7,760 nucleotides of DNA from an uncultured Solirubrobacteraceae bacterium (GTDB taxonomy: Bacteria; Actinomycetota; Thermoleophilia; Solirubrobacterales; Solirubrobacteraceae), in assembly GCA_955652215.1 (NCBI GenBank), contig CATPAX010000272.1, positions 1 through 7,760 of the forward strand. The letters are read 5' to 3'. The position numbers and the translations under genes were made by a program. Every line of letters starts with the position of its first letter. Position 1 is the first letter of the stretch. Positions 1 through 7,760 of this stretch are shown one piece after another. The notes beneath the pieces are model-generated. The model saw only the letters and a list, made by a program, of their open reading frames with translations. It was not told where the DNA came from and searched no databases.

Positions 1-622
1 CACTTGACGGCCTGACGGTTCCTGACTTGTGGACGAGATAGATCTCGACGAACGCCCAAACGATGAAGACGGTGAGGATGGTGTACTCGATCAGCGCGAC
101 AGCCACCTGAAGGCGCGCGCTGGGGCGCAGGCCGATGACCGCGACGGCGGTGAGCGCCGATCCAAGGATCGCGATCACGATCGCTCCGGCCAACTGGTTA
201 TTCGGGGAGAACCCGAGCAGCGCGAGCACGCTGGGGCCGATCGTGATCACGTCGATCAGCACGAAGCCGCCGAATGCGACGAGCATCAGCCAGCCCACCA
301 GGTTCCCGACGTATGGACTGAACGCGCGGCATACCCACTCGTAGGTCGCCCCGGCGTTCTGGCGCCACATGTTCAGACGCTGGAATGCGACTGCGATGCA
401 CAGCAGTCCGAGCGCCGAGATCGCCAGCGGAAGGATCGTCGCGTAGGCGGACGCCGCGACCAGCGACGCCAGCACGATCGAGACGGTCTGGCCGGGCGCG
501 GCACCAGCCAGCGCAAACACGGTCGAGCCGAGCAGGCCGACCTCGTTGCGCTTCAGCGACGTGCGGTCCCGGGATCGGCGCTGGGTGGTGCTCCCCGAGA
601 CGTCCCCTGTCGACGCAGTCAC
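1..622 (-). CDS. APC-superfamily permease, N-terminal part (cut by window start)
   Basis: Reading the minus strand from a GTG at 622 gives 207 open codons to the window edge, so only the N-terminal part is present (APC permeases are usually 450-520 residues). The first 25 residues are polar and basic and look cytoplasmic. Hydrophobic segments follow at about 28-57, 60-80, 104-135, 145-163 and 170-195. The stretch NAGATYEW (89-96), followed by RAFSPYVGNLVGW, matches the loop and third helix of APC amino-acid/polyamine permeases. The GTG is chosen because GGAG lies 6 bases before it. It diverges from the GntR regulator and carries a putative operator in its promoter, so it is probably the uptake system for the substrate degraded by the operon at 1488-4466. 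The family imports amino acids, amines and related compounds; the substrate here is unknown. The family call is firm, the role inferred. Confidence 0.88.
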   Translation of the reverse strand, partial: MTASTGDVSGSTTQRRSRDRTSLKRNEVGLLGSTVFALAGAAPGQTVSIVLASLVAASAYATILPLAISALGLLCIAVAFQRLNMWRQNAGATYEWVCRAFSPYVGNLVGWLMLVAFGGFVLIDVITIGPSVLALLGFSPNNQLAGAIVIAILGSALTAVAVIGLRPSARLQVAVALIEYTILTVFIVWAFVEIYLVHKSGTVRPSS

Positions 623-683
623 CAGTAGCTCCAATCTCGTCGCGTGCCTGTTCGCCTGCGTGTACGGCCCTGTAGGAGAGTGC

Positions 684-712
684 TATATACCATTGCACCT
701 GGTACATTGCAA
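684..712 (-). promoter_or_regulatory. Predicted sigma-70-like promoter of the permease gene
   Basis: On the minus strand TTGCAA (712-707) is followed after exactly 17 bases by TATATA (689-684). Each hexamer matches the TTGACA/TATAAT consensus at 4 of 6 positions. Transcription would begin near 677, leaving a leader of about 55 bases before the GTG at 622. TTGCAA is its own reverse complement, so it could also face the regulator gene. The A+T-rich patch stands out from its GC-rich surroundings. This is a prediction from spacing and composition only. Confidence 0.5.
685..707. promoter_or_regulatory. Putative GntR/FCD regulator operator, site 1
   Basis: ATATACCA (685-692), a 7-base spacer and TGGTACAT (700-707) form an inverted repeat with 7 of 8 arm positions paired, including a perfect TACCA/TGGTA core. 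It lies in the 17-base spacer of the predicted permease promoter and overlaps its -10, where a bound repressor would block polymerase. The left arm plus spacer (685-698, ATATACCATTGCAC) recurs at 4589-4602 before the enzyme operon. TGGTAT-type half-sites are known for some FCD-class GntR regulators such as UxuR/ExuR. That the adjacent regulator binds here is inferred from position and recurrence. Confidence 0.6.
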
Positions 713-739
713 GCGGTTCGCGGCTGCTGCCTATTGGTG

Positions 740-767
740 TAGGGTGCGGGCCCCGCGAGCCGGAGGG
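740..767 (+). promoter_or_regulatory. Candidate -10 and ribosome site for the GntR regulator
   Basis: TAGGGT (740-745) fits the TANNNT form of actinobacterial -10 elements. A weak TTCGCG lies 17 bases upstream (717-722). GGAGGG (762-767) lies 10 bases before the ATG at 778 and is the better ribosome site, because the second purine run GGAGGA (772-777) touches the ATG directly and is too close. The promoter part is weak; the ribosome site is reasonably supported. Confidence 0.35.
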
Positions 768-777
768 ACTCGGAGGA

Positions 778-1470
778 ATGTCGTCAGCTAGCGGTCGTGC
801 CGCGGTGCGGCAAAGCCATCTTTCGATCGTCGAAAGTCGGAGCTTTCGCGACCAGGTGCGGCGTGCGCTCGAGGCGGCGCTGGTAGCCGGCGAGCTCAAG
901 CCGGGTGAGCTCTACTCGGCGCCGATCCTGGGGGAGCGCTTTGGCGTCTCCGCCACGCCGGTCCGTGAGGCGATGCTCGACCTGGTCAAGGACGGGTTCG
1001 TCGTCGCTGAGCGCAACCGCGGATTTCGTGTGGTTGCGATGTCCGAGGTCGATCTCGATCAGATCTCGCACATCCGGCTGCTGCTCGAGGTCCCGAGCAC
1101 CGTCGAGGTGGCTCGGATCGTGACCTCCGAGGTGCTCGATCGCCTGTCCGAGATCGCCGACGAGATAGTCGCAGCTGCCGCGCGCGGGGATCTGATCGAC
1201 TATCTCGATACCGACCGGCGATTTCACGTCGAACTGATCTCCCAGCTCGGAAACGACCGTCTCACTGAGCTGGTCGATCGCATGCGCCGCCAGACGCGGC
1301 TGTTCGGCCTCGACCAGCTGGTCGAAACCGGCCGGCTGGTCGCCTCAGCCGAAGAGCACAATCAACTGATCGAAGCGATGCGGGCCCGGGACGGAGCGAG
1401 CACCCGGCGCCTCATGACCTCGCACATCAAGCACACCCGCGGCCTGTGGGTCGGGCGCGAGGAGCAGTAG
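778..1470 (+). CDS. GntR-family transcriptional regulator, FCD (FadR-like) subclass
   Basis: A 230-residue protein, the usual length for the FCD group. Residues 22-86 form the winged helix-turn-helix: the GELKPGE turn, LGERFGVSATPVREAM (51-66) as the helix-turn-helix, and a wing ending GFRVVAM. Residues 92-222 form the all-helical FCD effector domain. Its expected metal-site residues are present as Asp146 and His150 (DRRFH), His194 (EEHNQ) and His216 (TSHIK), so the protein probably binds a metal and a carboxylate ligand. FCD regulators usually repress genes for uptake and breakdown of organic acids, sugar acids or amino acids and release DNA when the substrate binds. It lies between the divergent permease and the convergent enzyme operon, and its stop is only 17 bases from the aldolase stop. 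It is the likely reader of the motif at 685-707 and 4589-4606; the effector is unknown. Confidence 0.93.
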   Translation: MSSASGRAAVRQSHLSIVESRSFRDQVRRALEAALVAGELKPGELYSAPILGERFGVSATPVREAMLDLVKDGFVVAERNRGFRVVAMSEVDLDQISHIRLLLEVPSTVEVARIVTSEVLDRLSEIADEIVAAAARGDLIDYLDTDRRFHVELISQLGNDRLTELVDRMRRQTRLFGLDQLVETGRLVASAEEHNQLIEAMRARDGASTRRLMTSHIKHTRGLWVGREEQ

Positions 1471-1487
1471 CGGCGCGACCCGGGGCA

Positions 1488-2378
1488 CTAACGCAGCCCG
1501 GCTACGAGCGCCTGCTCGGTCAGCCGGCGCACCTCGCTCTCGTGCTCGGGCGAGAGCGGGACTCGAGGCGGCCGGCAGACGCCGCCCTCGCGACCAACAA
1601 TGTCCATCGAGAGCTTGATCGCCTGCACGAACTCGGTCTTCGAGTCCCAGCGAAGAAGCGGATGTAGCGCCCGGTAGAGCGGGACCGCGATCTCGAGATC
1701 TCCCGTCACCGACGCCCGGTAGAGCTCGACGCACGAGCGCGGAAAGACGCTCGTGTATCCCGAGATCCAGCCGACCGCGCCGGACAGGGCGATCTCGAGC
1801 ACCGTGTCGTCGGAGCCGATCAGCACATCGAGCTCCGGCGCCAGTTCGCGCACTACATACGCCCGGCGGGGGTCACCCGCGAACTCCTTGACAGCGACGA
1901 TCAGCCCCTCCTCATGGAGCCTGGCCAGACGCTCCGGCGTGAGATCGGTCTTGGTGTCGATCGGGTTGTTGTAGGCGACCACCGGTAGGCCAACCGCGGC
2001 CAGCGCTCTGTAGTGCTCGAATATGCTTCGCTCGTCGGAGCGGTACGAGTTCGGGGGCAGCGCCATCACCGCCGGAGCGCCGAGCTCCGCTGCCTGCTCG
2101 GCCCAGTGAACTGCCTCCCGCGCGCCGTAGGCGCCCACCGCCGGAATCACCGCGAACCCCTCGGGCGCGGCCTCGATCGCTGTTTCAATCACGCGCACTC
2201 GCTCCCCGGCACTCAGGGTCTGGTATTCGCCCAGTGATCCGTTGGGCGTGATCCCGTCGCAGCCCGACTGCGCCAGCCATCTGATGTGCTTTGCGTAGCG
2301 GTCGAGATCGAGCTCGAGCTTCTCGTCGAACGCCATCGGGTTGGCCACGAGAACGCCGTGCCAGGGCTGGCTATTCAT
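1488..2378 (-). CDS. DapA-family (class I) aldolase/lyase, probably catabolic
   Basis: A 296-residue (beta/alpha)8 enzyme of the dihydrodipicolinate synthase / N-acetylneuraminate lyase family. The Schiff-base lysine is Lys164 (VAVKEF) and the partner tyrosine is Tyr136 (VVAYNNP), at the expected spacing. The GTTGE loop of true dihydrodipicolinate synthase reads NGSLGE (46-51), with Leu49 where the second Thr of the synthase lies. The place of the arginine that holds aspartate semialdehyde in the E. coli enzyme (Arg138) is taken by Asp141. These changes argue against lysine biosynthesis and for a 2-oxo acid aldolase or a dehydratase/deaminase acting on a sugar-acid- or amino-acid-derived intermediate. 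It is the last gene of the operon; its ATG overlaps the end of the hydrolase gene by 8 bases (ATGAATAG), so translation is probably coupled. The exact reaction is not determined. Confidence 0.88.
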   Translation of the reverse strand: MNSQPWHGVLVANPMAFDEKLELDLDRYAKHIRWLAQSGCDGITPNGSLGEYQTLSAGERVRVIETAIEAAPEGFAVIPAVGAYGAREAVHWAEQAAELGAPAVMALPPNSYRSDERSIFEHYRALAAVGLPVVAYNNPIDTKTDLTPERLARLHEEGLIVAVKEFAGDPRRAYVVRELAPELDVLIGSDDTVLEIALSGAVGWISGYTSVFPRSCVELYRASVTGDLEIAVPLYRALHPLLRWDSKTEFVQAIKLSMDIVGREGGVCRPPRVPLSPEHESEVRRLTEQALVAGLR

Positions 2379-3282
2379 GCCCGTTCTCAGGGGGAAGCAG
2401 CGAGCGCGCGATCGAGCATTTCGCCGTGTGCAACAGATTGCTCACCTGTCCGACCCCGCAATGCGCTCCGATCCCCATCACGATCGCCGCCTGCTCGGGA
2501 CCGAGGCTCCACTCGTCCTCGAGCCACAGCTTGAGCTCGCGAAAGGCCGCGCGACATGAATCAGCCAATGAGATCCCGGACACGATCGTGGTCAGCTTCT
2601 CGGCCGAGCGAACCCTCGGGGCGCCCATCGACCGTGGCCGCTTCACCGGGCGCGCACTGGCCATGATCCTGGCCCCGACCTCAGGGGCGGCGACGACCTC
2701 GCCGTCGCCCATCGCGGCCTTGCAGTCCCCGAAGTACAGACCGGCGCCGGCTACCGCGACAGGAAGCGTGACCGTCGCGCCGGCAGTGATCTCGGCGCAG
2801 TCAACGTTGCCTCCGTAGTCACCCTCGTGGCGGCTGAGGACGGTTTCCCGCGCGGGCGAAGTGGCCAGGCAGCCGATCAGTGGGCGGACCGGGATAGTCC
2901 AGTCATCGCTCAGCCGGATCAATCCGTCCTCGATGGGGAGGTTCACCACGTGGTCCTCCTCGTGCCACCAGTCAACCGGAGACAGTGCCTCGCAGCGGCT
3001 GATGAGCACGCACCCAGGCGTTGTCACTCCGAGCTCCTGGACGGTGATCTCGACAGCCTCCCCGGGCTCGGCCCCCTGCACCGCGACCGGTCCGGTAACG
3101 CCGTCGAGGTTAGCTTCGACCCAGGCGGCCGACTGGTGGTTGAAGTCGGCGGGATCCCGGAAGCGGCCGGTGAAGCAATCCTCCGTCAGCACGGTGAACA
3201 GCTCTCCGGGCTCAACCGTCCCGACTGGCTCGTGGTCCGGGCTGTAGGTGTACTTGAGCTCGCTCGGGCTGAACGTCTGCAT
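2371..3282 (-). CDS. Acetamidase/formamidase-family amide hydrolase
   Basis: A 303-residue protein of the FmdA/AmdA family, whose characterised members release ammonia from formamide, acetamide or other short amides. Family landmarks are RPLIGCLATSPA (133-144), HEGDYGGNVDC (152-162, the GGN-D motif) and FGDCKAAMGDGEV (184-196). The second Asp-rich motif carries Lys188 where many relatives have His or Gln. No signal peptide or membrane segment is visible, so it is cytoplasmic. The length is within the family range of about 300-410. Its ATG shares one base with the TGA of the enolase-family gene (TGATG), and no separate ribosome site is evident, which suggests translational coupling. Context suggests it removes an amide nitrogen from an intermediate or from the substrate; the actual amide is unknown. 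Confidence 0.88.
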   Translation of the reverse strand: MQTFSPSELKYTYSPDHEPVGTVEPGELFTVLTEDCFTGRFRDPADFNHQSAAWVEANLDGVTGPVAVQGAEPGEAVEITVQELGVTTPGCVLISRCEALSPVDWWHEEDHVVNLPIEDGLIRLSDDWTIPVRPLIGCLATSPARETVLSRHEGDYGGNVDCAEITAGATVTLPVAVAGAGLYFGDCKAAMGDGEVVAAPEVGARIMASARPVKRPRSMGAPRVRSAEKLTTIVSGISLADSCRAAFRELKLWLEDEWSLGPEQAAIVMGIGAHCGVGQVSNLLHTAKCSIARSLLPPENGHE

Positions 3283-4466
3283 CAGCGCCGTTTCTGGTGC
3301 AGCTCCGTCGGCAGCGGGGACTCGGGAGTCACCGGCCCGTAGCCCTCGAACTCGCCGTACTGCTCGTAAATGCCCTCGTAGAACTTCACCGCCTCGGAGT
3401 CGAGCTCGATCCCCAGGCCCGGCCCCGTCGGAACCGGGATCGCTCCGTCGACGAACTTGATCTCCTCGGCGACCAGGTCGTGCACCAGGAACGTAAGAAA
3501 CTGCTGGTGGCCGAGCTGCGGGGAGGGAAGTGTTCCCAGCACGTGCGCCGTCGCGATCGTCGTAATGCCGAGGTCCGCGAAGGCGTGCTTACAGATTGGT
3601 ATGCCGGCGGTCTCGCACATGGTGGCCGCGTTGTGGAACGGAACCAGCCCGCCGAGCTGATGAGGGTCGGTGACGATCACGTCGGCCGCCTGCTGCCTGA
3701 TCACCTCGGGCACCTGAGTGGGCAGCCAGGCGGACTGGTTGGCTCCGATGCGCACGCGCGCCTTGCGACGGAGATCGGCCAGCCCCGCGATGTTGTGCAT
3801 GTCGATCGGCTGCTCGACGAACTCGACTCCCACGTCCTCGAAGCGCGCAAGCGCGTCGACGGCTTCGAACACCGACCAGGCCTCGTTGGCGTCGACCCGG
3901 ACTGCGACCGCATCACCCACCTCATCACGGATAGCGCGCGCCAGCGCCAGATCGTTTGCCAGGTCGAAACCGATCTTGATGTACACCGACTTGAATCCGC
4001 GCGCGGCTCCTTCGGCCGCCTGCCGGCGGGCGGTCTCCGGGGTGCGATCGTCGACCCCGATGAACCAATAGAAGGGCACGTGGTCGGTCTGAAGCCCACC
4101 GAAGAACTGGTGCACGGGACAGCCGTAAGTCTTCCCGCAGATGTCCCACAGCGCCATCTCGATCGCCGCGGTGGCGCCGTTTCCGAGGTATGGGTAGTGG
4201 TGCCAGCCGCGATCCGCGGCACGCTGGAGGAACTCCTTGACCCGCCGTGGATCCTCTCCGACGATCCACGGCGTGGTGGCCTCGAGGGCGTCGCGGACGA
4301 GCGTAATCAGGGGGCTGCCGGGCACCTCCCCGATCCCTGTGATCCCCTCGTCGGTGTGGACCTCGACGATCGCGTTGGTCAGTCCCCACATCCGGCCAAA
4401 GCGCCAGGTCTCGGGGTGCGTGAAGGGCACCGAGACGATGTGCACGTCGACGCCAGTGACTTTCAT
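3282..4466 (-). CDS. Enolase-superfamily enzyme, mandelate racemase/muconate lactonizing type (probable acid-sugar or hydroxy-acid dehydratase)
   Basis: A 394-residue protein with an N-terminal capping domain (1-125) and a C-terminal barrel. Barrel residues that can be placed against mandelate racemase are Lys164 (YIKIG, the Lys166 base), Asp192 (VDANEAW) and Glu218 (EFVEQPI) as the first two metal ligands, and the Asp267/His294 pair (TDPHQLGG, CKHAF) matching the Asp270-His297 dyad. Two differences stand out: Tyr162 replaces the first Lys of KxK, and the third acidic ligand position reads GANQS (241-245). Members with this Lys/His arrangement abstract the proton alpha to a carboxylate and then dehydrate or epimerise. 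The ATG at 4466 is chosen for the GGAGGAGGG run just before it; the reading frame stays open upstream to 4904, but that part has no family similarity and runs over the repeats and operator. It is the first gene of the operon. The superfamily is certain, the substrate unknown. Confidence 0.92.
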   Translation of the reverse strand: MKVTGVDVHIVSVPFTHPETWRFGRMWGLTNAIVEVHTDEGITGIGEVPGSPLITLVRDALEATTPWIVGEDPRRVKEFLQRAADRGWHHYPYLGNGATAAIEMALWDICGKTYGCPVHQFFGGLQTDHVPFYWFIGVDDRTPETARRQAAEGAARGFKSVYIKIGFDLANDLALARAIRDEVGDAVAVRVDANEAWSVFEAVDALARFEDVGVEFVEQPIDMHNIAGLADLRRKARVRIGANQSAWLPTQVPEVIRQQAADVIVTDPHQLGGLVPFHNAATMCETAGIPICKHAFADLGITTIATAHVLGTLPSPQLGHQQFLTFLVHDLVAEEIKFVDGAIPVPTGPGLGIELDSEAVKFYEGIYEQYGEFEGYGPVTPESPLPTELHQKRR

Positions 4467-4471
4467 TGCCG

Positions 4472-4484
4472 ACCCTCCTCCGGC
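4472..4484 (-). promoter_or_regulatory. Strong ribosome binding site of the enolase-family gene
   Basis: On the minus strand GGAGGAGGG precedes the ATG at 4466 by about 6 bases. This decides the start against the much longer open frame that extends to 4904. Confidence 0.8.
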
Positions 4485-4491
4485 ATCAGCC

Positions 4492-4518
4492 CGCGAACGG
4501 GGTAAATCTCCCCGCGCG
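4492..4518 (-). other. GC hairpin in the leader of the enzyme operon
   Basis: CGGGG (4498-4502) and CCCCG (4510-4514) pair perfectly around a 7-base A+T-rich loop. The stem can extend by an outer CGCG/CGCG pairing (4492-4495 with 4515-4518) past an AA bulge. In the minus-strand transcript the hairpin would lie only a few bases upstream of the enolase-gene ribosome site. There is no following U run, so it is not a typical terminator. A role in leader stability or translation control is possible but unproven. Confidence 0.35.
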
Positions 4519-4586
4519 CGCGAGCGATAACTCCCCGCGCGCGAGCGGAAACTCCCCGCAGCGCGAGAGATAACTCCCCGCAGGGA
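4503..4586. repeat. Four degenerate direct repeats about 22 bases apart
   Basis: The core CTCCCCGC follows a TAA or AAA and recurs with CTCCCCG starting at 4508, 4531, 4552 and 4574, which is spacings of 23, 21 and 22 bases. The filler is a CGCGCGAGCG-like stretch. Read on the minus strand each unit is close to GCGGGGAGTTATC. The spacing is not a multiple of three, which argues against a protein repeat and fits two turns of the DNA helix. The array occupies the predicted leader of the enzyme operon, between the operator (4589-4606) and the start codon (4466). It may be an array of binding sites, a structured leader RNA or a slippage-generated tandem repeat. Confidence 0.7.
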
Positions 4587-4588
4587 CA

Positions 4589-4606
4589 GTGCAATGGTAC
4601 ATAATA
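4589..4606 (-). promoter_or_regulatory. Putative GntR/FCD operator, site 2, with -10 of the enzyme operon
   Basis: On the minus strand ATGTACCATTGCAC (4602-4589) matches site 1 at 13 of 14 bases. Immediately upstream and touching it is TATTAT (4606-4601), 5 of 6 to the -10 consensus. No convincing -35 lies 17 bases further up, so an activator-independent promoter would be weak. GGTA and TACC flank a 5-base centre (GGTATTATGTACC), giving a second small inverted repeat. Transcription starting near 4594 would give a leader of about 128 bases. A repressor bound here would cover the -10 and start site. Confidence 0.55.
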
Positions 4607-4653
4607 CCCTCCGAGCCGTGTCGACGGCGCCCGGCCGCGCCGGCCCGACCGGG

Positions 4654-4668
4654 CATACTAAGCCCGTG
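4654..4668 (+). promoter_or_regulatory. Possible leaderless start of otsB (-10-like element next to GTG)
   Basis: CATACT (4654-4659) lies 6 bases before the GTG at 4666, the spacing expected for a -10 element of a leaderless transcript, which is common in actinobacteria. No Shine-Dalgarno sequence precedes this GTG. The -35 region is not recognisable. The support is modest. Confidence 0.3.
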
Positions 4669-5469
4669 ACATCAGCGCTCGATTTCGAAGCGCTTGCGCC
4701 GATCCGCGCCGATCCGAAGCACGCCGCGATCCTGCTCGACATCGATGGGACGCTCGCTCCGATCGTCGACATGGCCGCCGATGCCAGCGTCCCGGAGAGC
4801 ACCAGGCAGCTGCTGATCAGGGTGGCGCGCAAGTACGGCGTCGTGGCGTGCGTGAGCGGACGCAGAGCATCGGAAGCCCGGGCAATGGTCTCGATCGGCG
4901 CCATGTCCTACCTCGGCTCGCACGGCTCGGAGCTGTTGCGGGCCGGCTGGACCGAGCCGCGGCGCGACCCGAAGCTCGAGGAGTGGGTGGTCCGCATCCA
5001 GGAATTTGCCCGGGAGTCGGATACCCCCGATTTGCGTCGCCGGCGTGTGCGGATCGAGGACAAGGGCACGATCGTGGCGTTCCATTGGCGTGGAGCCCCT
5101 GACGAAGAGGCGGCGCGCGCTGCGATCGACGCGGTGGCGGCGAGGGCCGAGGAGGCCGGTTTCCGCACGCACTGGGGCCGGAAGGTGCTCGAGGTCCGCC
5201 CCCCGGTGCGGATCGACAAGGGCGCCGGCATTAAGGCCTTCCTGAAGGACACTGACGTCGCGGCCGCGATGTACGTCGGCGACGACACCACCGATCTTGA
5301 TGCTTTCCACGCCCTCACTGAGCTCGCGCAGGAGGGCCAGATCGCACACGCCGTCCGTGTCGGGGTGCGCTCGGACGAGGGCCCGTCCGAGATAACCGGT
5401 GAGGCCGACGTCGCGGTCGAGGGAACCGCTGGCGTCAGGGAACTGCTCGCCGCGTTGATCGCCGAATAG
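4666..5469 (+). CDS. otsB: Trehalose-6-phosphate phosphatase
   Basis: A 267-residue HAD-superfamily phosphatase that hydrolyses trehalose 6-phosphate to trehalose in the cytoplasm. HAD motif I is LLDIDGTLAPI, with nucleophile Asp25 and acid/base Asp27. Motif II is Ser64 in VSGR, motif III Lys185 in RIDKGAG, and motif IV GDDTTD (205-210). LGSHGSEL and the RVRIEDKG strand belong to the cap region typical of OtsB. The length is typical. The frame is open back to an ATG at 4594 and a GTG at 4618, but the ATG falls inside the predicted operator of the opposite operon and the extra residues do not look like OtsB, so the GTG at 4666 is preferred. No trehalose-6-phosphate synthase (OtsA) is adjacent. 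The membrane-protein gene follows after 35 bases. Confidence 0.92.
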   Translation: MTSALDFEALAPIRADPKHAAILLDIDGTLAPIVDMAADASVPESTRQLLIRVARKYGVVACVSGRRASEARAMVSIGAMSYLGSHGSELLRAGWTEPRRDPKLEEWVVRIQEFARESDTPDLRRRRVRIEDKGTIVAFHWRGAPDEEAARAAIDAVAARAEEAGFRTHWGRKVLEVRPPVRIDKGAGIKAFLKDTDVAAAMYVGDDTTDLDAFHALTELAQEGQIAHAVRVGVRSDEGPSEITGEADVAVEGTAGVRELLAALIAE

Positions 5470-5504
5470 TGGGTCACAGCGAAACATCCGGCGAGACTCG
5501 CTAG

Positions 5505-6059
5505 ATGCGCTTCAGCGACTTTCTCCGCACGACGGTTCTGCTGAGCGCCGCCGCCGCAAGTGCACTCGCCGTGATTACGGTCCTGAGCGCCGCTAACAGC
5601 GGCGATGATGTCGTGGTCGTGTTCGGGGCTGGCTGGTGGGTCGTGGCGAGCGGGATCGGGCTCTGGCTAGGACGCCGCGCGGAGACCTCGCCCCCGATCG
5701 CGACGCTGCTATCGAGCGCGCGAACCCTGCCCTCGCTACCGGAGGTCAATCCGGCCAGGACGCTGCTGAACCGGCTGTGGCCACTGCTCGTGTTGACGAT
5801 CGGCTCCGGCGCCGTCGCCTTCGAGGTGCCGCAGGTGGCGGCAATCGCCACCGGGTTCGCGATCATCTGGGCGCTGGCCTGGCGACGCCAGGCGTCTGCT
5901 GTGACCGCGATCGAGGAGCGCGACGGCGCCCGTTTCTATGTCGAGCAGACCTCGCCGCTGAAGCCGATTCGCTTGGTCCGCACCCCGGGGTTCCGGTCAA
6001 ATCGATTCGAGCTGAACGGATCATCCGGGCGCTCTCGGCGCGTCCGGCCCCGCGCTTAG
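5505..6059 (+). CDS. Membrane protein of unknown function
   Basis: A 184-residue protein that I do not recognise as a named family. Four hydrophobic segments are visible at about 10-30, 36-55, 91-106 and 109-126, with basic residues after the second (GRR, 56-58) and fourth (WRRQ, 126-129). The rest of the C-terminal part is soluble and contains ERDGARFYVEQTSPLKPI (138-155) and LVRTPGFR (157-164), which look like a conserved motif, followed by an arginine-rich tail. The ATG at 5505 has only a weak purine-rich sequence before it. The next gene starts at the base right after its stop, so the pair is probably co-transcribed. Its place between otsB and a glycosyltransferase suggests an envelope-related role, but this is only a guess from context. 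Confidence 0.75.
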   Translation: MRFSDFLRTTVLLSAAAASALAVITVLSAANSGDDVVVVFGAGWWVVASGIGLWLGRRAETSPPIATLLSSARTLPSLPEVNPARTLLNRLWPLLVLTIGSGAVAFEVPQVAAIATGFAIIWALAWRRQASAVTAIEERDGARFYVEQTSPLKPIRLVRTPGFRSNRFELNGSSGRSRRVRPRA

Positions 6060-7052
6060 GTGAACCCACTAGCCGGAATGTCCGGTACGGACGTCCTGGT
6101 CGTGTCCGTCGACAGCACGACGGGGTGGCGGATCGCAGCGCAGGCCCTCACTGACGCCCTCGAGGGCGCGGGAGCGAGCGCCATGCGGGTCAGTACTGGT
6201 CCGCTGCGCAAGGTGCGGACGTTCGCGCTCACCGATCTCCTCGAGGCTCGCGCCGCGCGACATGTTGCTGCCCGCGCGATCACCGAGCACCAGCCGGCGG
6301 TGGTCATCTATTGCGGGATCACCGCGTCGCTGCTGTGGCCGGTGCCGGGCGCGGTCTGGATCGATTCGCTCGCGGCGGAGAACCGGCCCGGTCGCCACGG
6401 GGTCTGGCAGCGTGTGGTCGAGCGCCGCCGTCTTGCCCGCGCGCCGCTGATCCTGGCCATGAGCCCCGGTGCGCTTCGCCCGCTCGATGGCGTCGCGGGC
6501 GAGGTGGCGGTCGTGCCCTGCCCGGTGGATTCCTCGGGTCCGCCCGCCGCGGTGCGGGACATCGCCGCGGCCATGTACGCCGGCAATCCGGAGAAGAAGC
6601 GGCTCGACCACGTGCTGTCCGCGTGGTCGGCGGCCAGGCAGGGCGACGAGCAGCTGGTGGTTGCGGGGCTCGATGGCGTGCAGTCGGCACCAGGGATCGA
6701 GGTCGCCGGACGGCTATCCGTAACCGAGTATCGCGCGCTGCTGCGCCGCGCCCGTACGTTCGTTGCCGCCCCGCGCCGCGAGGATTACGGGATCGCCCCG
6801 CTCGAGGCCCTGGCCGACGGGTGTCAGCTGGTCAGCACCCCGGCTCCTGGCGCGTACCCCGCGCTCGAGATCGCCAGGACGATCGACCCCAGGCTGGTGG
6901 GCGACGATCTCGCCCGCGCGATCCGGATCGCGCTCGATGACCCGGTCCCTGACTACGCGCGGCAAGCCGCCCAGCTGCTCGAGCCGTTCTCGTCCGCCGC
7001 GGTCCGCAGAACGCTCGCCGAGCGGGTGCTCCCCCGCTTACTGACAGGATGA
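6060..7052 (+). CDS. GT-B fold glycosyltransferase, GT4-like
   Basis: A 330-residue protein, shorter than the usual 360-400 of the family, with the loss on the N-terminal side. The C-terminal nucleotide-sugar half holds the EX7E motif as Glu241 and Glu249 (REDYGIAPLEAL). It is preceded by TEYRALLRRARTFVAAP and followed by ADGCQLVSTPAPG, the usual arrangement in GT4 retaining glycosyltransferases. The N-terminal half (WRIAAQALTDALEGAG) fits the acceptor-side Rossmann domain. No signal peptide or membrane segment is clear, so it is cytoplasmic or peripheral. The GTG at 6060 directly abuts the previous stop; an ATG at 6078 (MSGTDVLVVSVD) is an equally good start. Sugar donor and acceptor cannot be read from the sequence. 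Neighbours otsB and lgt hint at envelope or compatible-solute glycosylation, with low certainty. Confidence 0.85.
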   Translation: MNPLAGMSGTDVLVVSVDSTTGWRIAAQALTDALEGAGASAMRVSTGPLRKVRTFALTDLLEARAARHVAARAITEHQPAVVIYCGITASLLWPVPGAVWIDSLAAENRPGRHGVWQRVVERRRLARAPLILAMSPGALRPLDGVAGEVAVVPCPVDSSGPPAAVRDIAAAMYAGNPEKKRLDHVLSAWSAARQGDEQLVVAGLDGVQSAPGIEVAGRLSVTEYRALLRRARTFVAAPRREDYGIAPLEALADGCQLVSTPAPGAYPALEIARTIDPRLVGDDLARAIRIALDDPVPDYARQAAQLLEPFSSAAVRRTLAERVLPRLLTG

Positions 7053-7059
7053 GCGGGTC

Positions 7060-7760
7060 GTGATCTGGATCCCGTCCTACATCCCGAGCCCGTCGGCGAG
7101 CGGTTTTCACATCGGCCCGCTGTTCGTGCACGCCTACGGACTCATGTACGTGCTTGCGGTGCTTGCGGCGATCGTCATCTCGCGGCAGCGGTGGCGCAAG
7201 CAGGGAGGAGACCCGAACCTGCCGCAGGAGATCGCCGTGTGGGCGTTCCCCGCCGGGCTGATCGGCGGCCGAATCTATTTCCTGATCACCACACCCAGCC
7301 AGATCCCGCCGCACTGGTGGGGCCCGTTCGCCGTCTGGAAGGGTGGCCTGGGCATCTGGGGCGGGGTTGCCGGCGGCGCGCTTGTCGGCATCTGGCTGGC
7401 CCGCAGGCGCCTCGGGCCCGCCGACGCCCGCCGGTTCGCCGATGCCGTCGCGCCGTCGCTGCTGGTCGCGCAGTCGATCGGGCGGATCGGCAACTACTTC
7501 AACCAGGAGCTGTTCGGTAAGCCGACGTCGCTCCCGTGGGGCCTGAAGATCGACCCCGCCCACCGGCCGCCTGGGTTCTCCCAGTACGCGACCTTTCACC
7601 CCACGTTTCTCTACGAGATCATCTGGAACCTGTCGCTGGCGGCGTTCCTCATATGGCTCGGGAACCACCGCCGGATCAAACCCCCCGGGTTGTTCGCGCT
7701 CTACGTGGCGGGCTACTCGGCGTTCAGGATGTTCGAGGAGACGCTGCGGATCGACTACTC
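7060..7760 (+). CDS. lgt: Prolipoprotein diacylglyceryl transferase, N-terminal part (cut by window end)
   Basis: The GTG at 7060 opens 233 codons to the window edge; full proteins are usually 260-330 residues. The enzyme moves diacylglycerol from phosphatidylglycerol to the lipobox cysteine of prolipoproteins in the cytoplasmic membrane. HAYGL (24-28), KGGLGIWGG (94-102), the signature GRIGNYFNQELFG (141-153) with Arg142 and Glu150, and a later FHPTFLYE are all present. FRMFEETLRID near the window edge carries the C-terminal conserved arginines. Trp100 stands where E. coli Lgt has the essential His103; actinobacterial Lgt proteins commonly read GIWG here. AGGA (7046-7049) is a possible ribosome site. 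It begins 7 bases after the glycosyltransferase stop, so they are probably in one transcript. Confidence 0.93.
   Translation, partial: MIWIPSYIPSPSASGFHIGPLFVHAYGLMYVLAVLAAIVISRQRWRKQGGDPNLPQEIAVWAFPAGLIGGRIYFLITTPSQIPPHWWGPFAVWKGGLGIWGGVAGGALVGIWLARRRLGPADARRFADAVAPSLLVAQSIGRIGNYFNQELFGKPTSLPWGLKIDPAHRPPGFSQYATFHPTFLYEIIWNLSLAAFLIWLGNHRRIKPPGLFALYVAGYSAFRMFEETLRIDY

Follow-up and report, generated by a model that had tools for sequence, protein, structure and literature searches.

Predicted operators of a HypR-like GntR/FCD regulator at two promoter regions of an uncultured Solirubrobacteraceae bacterium

Are two nearly identical short sequences in the DNA of an uncultured Solirubrobacteraceae bacterium (assembly GCA_955652215.1, contig CATPAX010000272.1, positions 1 to 7,760; this whole stretch of 7,760 nucleotides is called the window here) operators of the GntR/FCD regulator that is encoded beside one of them? 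The first of these 14-mers, ATATACCATTGCAC, lies at 685-698 on the plus strand between a permease gene on the minus strand and the regulator gene on the plus strand, and the second, ATGTACCATTGCAC, at 4602-4589 on the minus strand upstream of an operon headed by an enolase-superfamily gene. A sequence-only reading of this DNA had reported both, and re-reading of the window confirmed their coordinates, their strands and their identity at 13 of 14 bases. Its statement that no third copy is present also held, since searching the window for ATRTACCATTGCAC, with as many as three mismatches allowed, returned exactly these two (0.22 expected; at least two in 5 of 200 shuffles). The same reading had placed both sites in promoter regions of genes flanking the regulator, which is correct for the first; the second does not adjoin the regulator but lies beyond the opposite end of the enzyme operon, with the enolase gene on one side of it and a divergent trehalose-phosphatase gene on the other. 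From sequence comparison, we consider it highly probable that both sites are operators of the regulator at 778-1470, acting as a HypR-like repressor of its own gene, the permease gene and the enolase operon. The 14-mers, real as they are, probably form only part of the element, a predicted 19-bp inverted repeat:

680..698, plus strand: predicted operator A, 19-bp inverted repeat GTGCTATATACCATTGCAC, including the 14-mer at 685-698; sites are also found in the relatives L001 and, weaker, L002
4607..4589, minus strand: predicted operator B, 19-bp inverted repeat GTATTATGTACCATTGCAC, including the 14-mer at 4602-4589; L001 and L002 have sites at their enolase promoters
704..712, plus strand: single additional half-site ACATTGCAA next to operator A, oriented like the right arm of A and overlapping the -35-like hexamer of the permease gene

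Recurrence and rarity of the sites

By itself the match within the window is only modestly surprising, and its significance comes from its conservation in relatives. Relatives' loci were collected by a profile search of genome contigs with an alignment of 24 regulator relatives, and 80 of the 579 loci were taken. Among these 80, two loci from metagenome-assembled genomes, L001 (Solirubrobacterales) and L002 (Actinomycetes), carry the same regulator (79% and 75%, respectively) together with DHDPS, FmdA and enolase genes. L001 contains ATGTAGCATGGCAC between its permease and regulator genes and ATGTACCATTGTAC upstream of its enolase gene, while in L002 ATGTACCATGGCAC lies upstream of the enolase gene and ATGTACAATGGCAC upstream of a gene for an ABC solute-binding protein, with ATGTAGAATTGCAC another 348 bases upstream on the opposite strand. 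When the window-derived pattern was tested against 2000 shuffles of each promoter stretch, the enolase promoters of L001 and L002 each matched with one mismatch, a score that none of the 2000 shuffles reached in either case. The permease-regulator stretch of L001 matched with two mismatches (1 of 2000 shuffles as good), as did the ABC-transporter stretch of L002 (3 of 2000), which was picked after its site had been seen. An IS66-type transposase gene is located at 13487-14905 of L002, about 430 bases beyond the enolase operator.

In addition, close matches are rare in the genomes that hold these loci. At up to one mismatch, ATGTACCATKGCAC has two matches each in G001 and G002, the genomes of L001 and L002, and all four are at the regulator-enzyme locus. 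The family as a whole (146 genomes) shows 24 such matches, spread over 19 genomes. Setting G001 and G002 aside leaves 144 genomes, of which 17 contain 20 matches; nine of these 20 are the word ATGTACCACGGCAC, and another, ATGTAACATTGCAC in G341, lies where a HypR-like regulator homologue was matched, at the 5' end of that stretch. A backward control pattern gave 14 matches across the 146 genomes and none in G001 and G002, and a regulator homologue at E<=1e-60 was present in 11 of the 146. At up to two mismatches the pattern is unspecific (184 matches against 129 for the control in 28 genomes of the genus). Two places outside the locus with matches at that level were viewed in their open reading frame (ORF) context and taken as chance: two overlapping matches in G002:C76 fall inside a long ORF (753 residues), and the one in G001:C117 falls where a 126-residue ORF has its 5' end.

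Additional loci of the window's regulator clade may exist beyond L001 and L002. A search of the class yielded 2 of 399 genomes at E<=1e-80 with at most 7 candidates per genome scored, and a search of the order 2 of 232 at 1e-85 with at most 12 scored; neither added a locus to the clade. Likewise, 22 pattern matches in viral contigs included no relative of the clade, and 22 plasmid records, all below 60% identity, gave no further locus of it.

A regulator related to HypR

The regulator is encoded as follows:

778..1470, plus strand: GntR/FCD (FadR-subfamily) regulator, HypR-like, assigned from Pfam, a tree and best matches in both directions

It shows the architecture of the FadR/FCD subfamily, an N-terminal GntR winged helix-turn-helix (Pfam 1e-12, 47.9 bits, cut-off 27) followed by a C-terminal FCD domain (1.5e-23, 84 bits, cut-off 24.3). 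Residues D146, H150, H194 and H216, which we take to be the FCD metal site, are invariant across 24 aligned sequences. In all six Actinomycetes genomes compared (G440-G445) its best match was the homologue at the fetched locus (in G440, 1.7e-67, with the next at 2.0e-41), and in the opposite direction a Streptomyces homologue found the regulators of G001 (1.2e-69; second match 2.1e-17) and G002 (2.4e-61; second 2.1e-22) first. In a tree of 58 regulators, the window clade of 17 rows (support 100/99) is joined at a node of 89/81 to a clade of 25 rows (96/85) that comprises regulators of Streptomyces hydroxyproline-type clusters together with those of G374 and G165. The tree was rooted by midpoint only, and S. 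coelicolor HypR was represented by regulators of similar Streptomyces clusters; with this root and the long outgroup branches, the placing of the clade is unsure. HypR is the closest characterised relative that we found for the window regulator.

Two annotated Streptomyces loci contain DAO, Pyr_redox/BFD, proline racemase and DHDPS genes, L012 having an aldehyde dehydrogenase gene as well, and this setting matches that given for HypR (SCO6294) of S. coelicolor in PMC6608401. According to the same paper, HypR is a repressor that was footprinted on TACAATGTCAC (consensus CTNTGC(A/C)ATGTCAC) over the -10 of its own promoter; its DNA binding is abolished by zinc, and L-hydroxyproline induces in vivo. 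Similar to HypR, the window regulator belongs to the GntR/FCD FadR subfamily and has a DHDPS-family gene in its predicted regulon; a predicted site covering a -10-like hexamer also precedes its own gene (operator A spans 680-698, and the gene starts at 778; L001 has a site there too, L002 a weak one). Compared with the HypR operators TACAATGTCAC / TGCAATGTCAC, the window sequence TGCAATGGTAC agrees with TGCAATGTCAC at 9 of 11 bases; where HypR-type sites carry A, however, most window-type sites show C or G (GTGACAT in the former, GTACCAT in the latter). The HypR of Sinorhizobium meliloti and other Proteobacteria, also a GntR-family negative regulator of hydroxyproline genes (PMC5343134 and PMC4494728), is likened here by name and role only; PMC4494728 also names a HypR group whose GT and AC stand 2 nt apart.

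Sites were also sought in a wider set of homologues, the 78 loci L003-L080 without L011 (which has only 28 bases before its gene), 77 in all. The reversed 11-mer of the HypR footprint, at up to one mismatch, was found near the start of 35 of these 77 Actinomycetes homologues, where 0.1 were expected, near the start being defined as 250 bases upstream to 60 bases into the approximate gene start. The window's own pattern occurred near 14 of the 77 starts at two mismatches (1.3 expected at two or fewer). An earlier pattern count of 38 of 77 at up to one mismatch was circular, the pattern having been picked after 12 of the sequences had been seen. At 7858-7907 of L009, upstream of the regulator, three HypR-type sites (GTGACATTGCAC, ATGACATTGCAC and GTGACATCGCAC) stand in tandem, 19 bases apart.

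Operator form, promoters and competing explanations

For the form of the element, eight window-type sites were considered: the two of the window, two of L001 and four of L002. Their alignment points to GTRNNATGK-N-MCATNNYAC, a 19-bp inverted repeat with 9-bp arms and a 1-bp centre, as the probable complete element. This model was chosen because of the mirrored GTR of the left arm, which is at the expected place in seven of the eight sites and, since it lies outside the 14-mer of the sequence-only reading, provides partly independent support. The mirrored GTR was also present in 10 of 28 distinct HypR-type sites, compared with 0-2 of 28 at the 18 other tested offsets, offset 7 belonging to the search pattern itself. 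Register scores of 42 HypR-type sites clearly favoured the 19-bp dyad (15.9) over a 12-bp dyad (9.9); the latter, GT-N8-AC, had been the initial reading and was dropped for the 19-bp register. Within the window the 19-mer model matched the two sites with 0 and 1 mismatch and everything else with at least 3, and 2 of 40 shuffled windows reached 2; this last figure is descriptive, the model having been fitted on the same sites.

PMC4494728 gives the common operator of the FadR/FCD subfamily as TKGT/ACMA, the GT and the AC being separated by 2-3 nt. The sites described here depart from it, their centres reading ATGK-N-MCAT, but the same text lists exceptions within the subfamily and the assignment by domains therefore stands. 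NanR-like direct repeats of TGGTATAW, described in that text as well, were rejected as a site model. Their likeness is confined to site A, which reads TGGTATAT on the minus strand, whereas site B and the corresponding sites of the relatives read TGGTACAT, TGCTACAT and similar; the proposed resemblance to TGGTAT-type sites was thus not kept in orthologous sites, and the element is an inverted repeat. The extra half-site at 704-712, which reads TGCAATGTACC on the minus strand (two mismatches to the HypR consensus), may assist regulation. Its centre is about 19 from that of operator A; in the GntR family, neighbouring boxes often lie 7-12 nt away from the centre of the site (PMC4494728).

Promoter-like elements overlap both operators:

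684..712, minus strand: permease promoter-like TTGCAA (712-707), 17-bp spacer and TATATA (689-684), identified by eye; operator A covers the -10
4601..4606, minus strand: -10-like TATTAT inside operator B, with TATCAT in L001 and TAGCAT in L002 at the same place

A promoter scan of the window returned no promoter-like site, and no recognisable -35 was seen by eye for the enolase promoter. By analogy with HypR, we infer a mechanism in which a regulator dimer would bind the 19-bp repeats at operators A and B and would repress its own promoter, the divergent permease gene and the enolase-FmdA-DHDPS operon by occupying the -10 region, until the imported substrate or one of its metabolites appears. 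Repression by covering the -10, including that of its own promoter region, with release by a substrate-derived signal, thus appears the most likely mode of action.

Several observations weigh against this interpretation. With respect to the element itself, the eighth window-type site, at the L002 ABC promoter, lacks the left GTR, and the register scores of seven window-type sites slightly favour the 12-bp dyad (13.8 versus 13.4 for the 19-bp dyad). The permease hexamers agree with the consensus at only 8 of 12 positions and stay under the threshold of the promoter scan. The window clade is represented by only three DNA loci (the window, L001 and L002). The site upstream of the L002 regulator, ATGCCACATTGCAC, is weak (three mismatches, 40 of 2000 shuffles as good), the spacing between operator and enolase start codon is not constant (122 bases in the window, 81 in L001, 21 in L002), and a MAFFT alignment of the three enolase regions aligned the motif in the window and L001 only. 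As to the kinship with HypR, the window regulator stands beside and not within the clade of hydroxyproline-cluster regulators, and the enzymes differ, the window operon having enolase and FmdA genes. The helix-turn-helix stretch GVSATPVREA, shared by the window regulator and five aligned regulators of that clade, also occurs in paralogues, among them L149, L164 and L169, and therefore carries little weight as a sign of kinship. Moreover, 42 of the 77 homologues have no HypR-type site at up to one mismatch near the start; many of these have related sites farther away. Each window site differs from the HypR consensus TRCMATGTCAC at 2 of 11 positions, which 137 and 52 of 2000 shuffles equalled, so that the similarity is not or barely significant alone.

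The sequence-only reading had held that a chance match of this length was unlikely. For the window alone this claim is weakened, as a best ungapped 14-base match of at least 13 between the shuffled intergenic regions 635-777 and 4467-4665 was reached in 54 of 3000 dinucleotide shuffles (p ~0.02); it is the independent reappearance of the motif before the enolase genes of both L001 and L002, unequalled in the shuffles of either, that makes a chance likeness of the two sites so improbable that we give it hardly any credence. The same p value, together with the -10-like hexamers TATATA and TATTAT inside the sites, could be taken to indicate that mainly a core-promoter sequence is shared and that no specific regulator is involved. 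This explanation is very improbable, considering that the conservation is mostly outside any -10 (CCATTGCAC and the GTR), recurs at corresponding promoters and is matched closely at two places only in each of G001 and G002. An unlikely explanation, though less so than these two, is that another regulator or a global factor recognises the shared element and the GntR/FCD neighbour is a bystander; in its favour, site B also adjoins the divergent trehalose-phosphatase gene. The element, however, accompanies the regulator, being at its locus in both genomes that hold it as against 20 matches in the 144 others, and HypR-type sites accompany its homologues in the proportion given above, the operator of the studied relative being alike.

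In summary, a real and recurring operator of a HypR-like repressor with a somewhat unusual regulon seems most likely from these comparisons. The regulon that the sequence-only reading had assigned to the GntR/FCD regulator is supported by the motif at orthologues' promoters, its rarity elsewhere and its resemblance to the footprinted HypR operator. Of the checks named in that reading, conservation upstream of orthologues was borne out in L001 and L002, weakly at the L002 regulator, and the frequent close matches at unrelated loci that it regarded as contrary evidence were not seen in G001 and G002.

Enzymes of the predicted regulon

The remaining genes of the locus are:

2..634, minus strand: APC-type amino-acid permease, incomplete (it runs off the window edge; start codon unsure), Pfam AA_permease 22.5 bits against a cut-off of 24.6
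3282..4466, minus strand: mandelate racemase/muconate lactonizing (enolase superfamily) enzyme, operon gene 1, from Pfam and comparison
2371..3282, minus strand: FmdA/acetamidase-family enzyme, operon gene 2, from Pfam and sequence comparison
1488..2378, minus strand: DHDPS-family lyase/deaminase, operon gene 3, from Pfam and protein comparison
start read as 4666, plus strand: trehalose-phosphatase gene, divergent from the enolase operon, from the ORF list and Pfam

The permease homologue of L001, 75% identical to that of the window, exceeds its Pfam cut-off (AA_permease_2, 89.7 bits). For the trehalose-phosphatase gene, the longest ORF (4594-5469) has its starting ATG within operator B; the GTG at 4666 is the likelier start, and the Pfam match begins at residue 23 counted from it. 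The enolase-superfamily protein has GANQ at the presumed metal-ligand place, where its nearest solved relative by sequence, 2pgw, has ADQ; mandelate racemase presumably reads GEN at this position, which we take to be a metal ligand. The leader of the enolase operon (4467-4588, minus strand) contains three 21-base repeats at a spacing of 21-22 bases (GCGCGAGCGATAACTCCCCGC on the plus strand, 4518-4581) and a related fourth repeat start at 4490, all between operator B and the start codon, and it folds more stably than shuffles (z -3.15). The L001 leader has two similar-looking short repeats by eye and an unexceptional fold (z -0.68), and that of L002 is only 21 bases long. No match at gathering scores was obtained in the window with Rfam.

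Four DHDPS proteins from loci with hydroxyproline-type genes (L005, L012, L141 and L072) share 60-68% identity with that of the window, and for the aldehyde dehydrogenase of L002 the identity is 56-58% with its counterparts in G374 and G165 and 51% with the one in L012. An SDR occurs in both L001 and L002 (70% identical). Neither the L001 and L002 stretches nor the nine scanned ORFs of the window yielded homologues of proline racemase, DAO (D-hydroxyproline dehydrogenase) or Pyr_redox; of the epimerase, D-hydroxyproline dehydrogenase and DHDPS-type deaminase of the HypR regulon, DHDPS alone is present. Given this kinship of DHDPS and aldehyde dehydrogenase and the missing racemase, DAO and Pyr_redox, the lower steps of the pathway may be shared with hydroxyproline catabolism while the upper steps differ. 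A hydroxyproline derivative is one candidate substrate, suggested by the DHDPS kinship together with the APC permease; the enolase-superfamily enzyme, the SDR and the ABC transporter of L002 suggest an acid sugar as another. In the same family as L001, hydroxyproline-type clusters with DHDPS, racemase, DAO and Pyr_redox genes lie near the regulator homologue at L141, L142, L144 and L147 (G374, G165, G220 and G141), with an aldehyde dehydrogenase gene in L141 and L142. Upstream of their DHDPS genes there are sites two mismatches from GTRMCATKGYAC, a level at which chance matches are common. An open-access literature search retrieved no paper on this enzyme combination and none on a Solirubrobacter GntR operator or regulon, and a further open-access search on enolase, hydroxyproline, GntR and DHDPS gave only a paper on a Corynebacterium metabolic model.

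A wider reading, to which we give an even chance, is that the repressors of a HypR-adjacent clade in Solirubrobacterales-like Actinomycetota still use an old operator code, the 19-bp inverted repeat, while their regulon was rebuilt as an undescribed route into alpha-ketoglutarate semialdehyde. The lower half of this route would consist of the DHDPS-type enzyme and, in L002, the aldehyde dehydrogenase, and its upper half of the enolase-superfamily enzyme, the FmdA-like amidohydrolase, the SDR and a permease or ABC transporter. If so, the 19-bp code would supply the symmetry left unclear in the HypR paper (PMC6608401). The dyad model may account for the way in which HypR-type proteins recognise their operators. 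What had been a guess from one sequence becomes a testable regulon with a defined, if predicted, operator, and an uncharacterised GntR/FCD clade of soil-type Actinomycetota is linked to a studied repressor. Enzymes of the enolase-superfamily, FmdA-like and DHDPS families and a transporter would thereby be tied to one circuit, and fewer compounds would come into question as their substrate.

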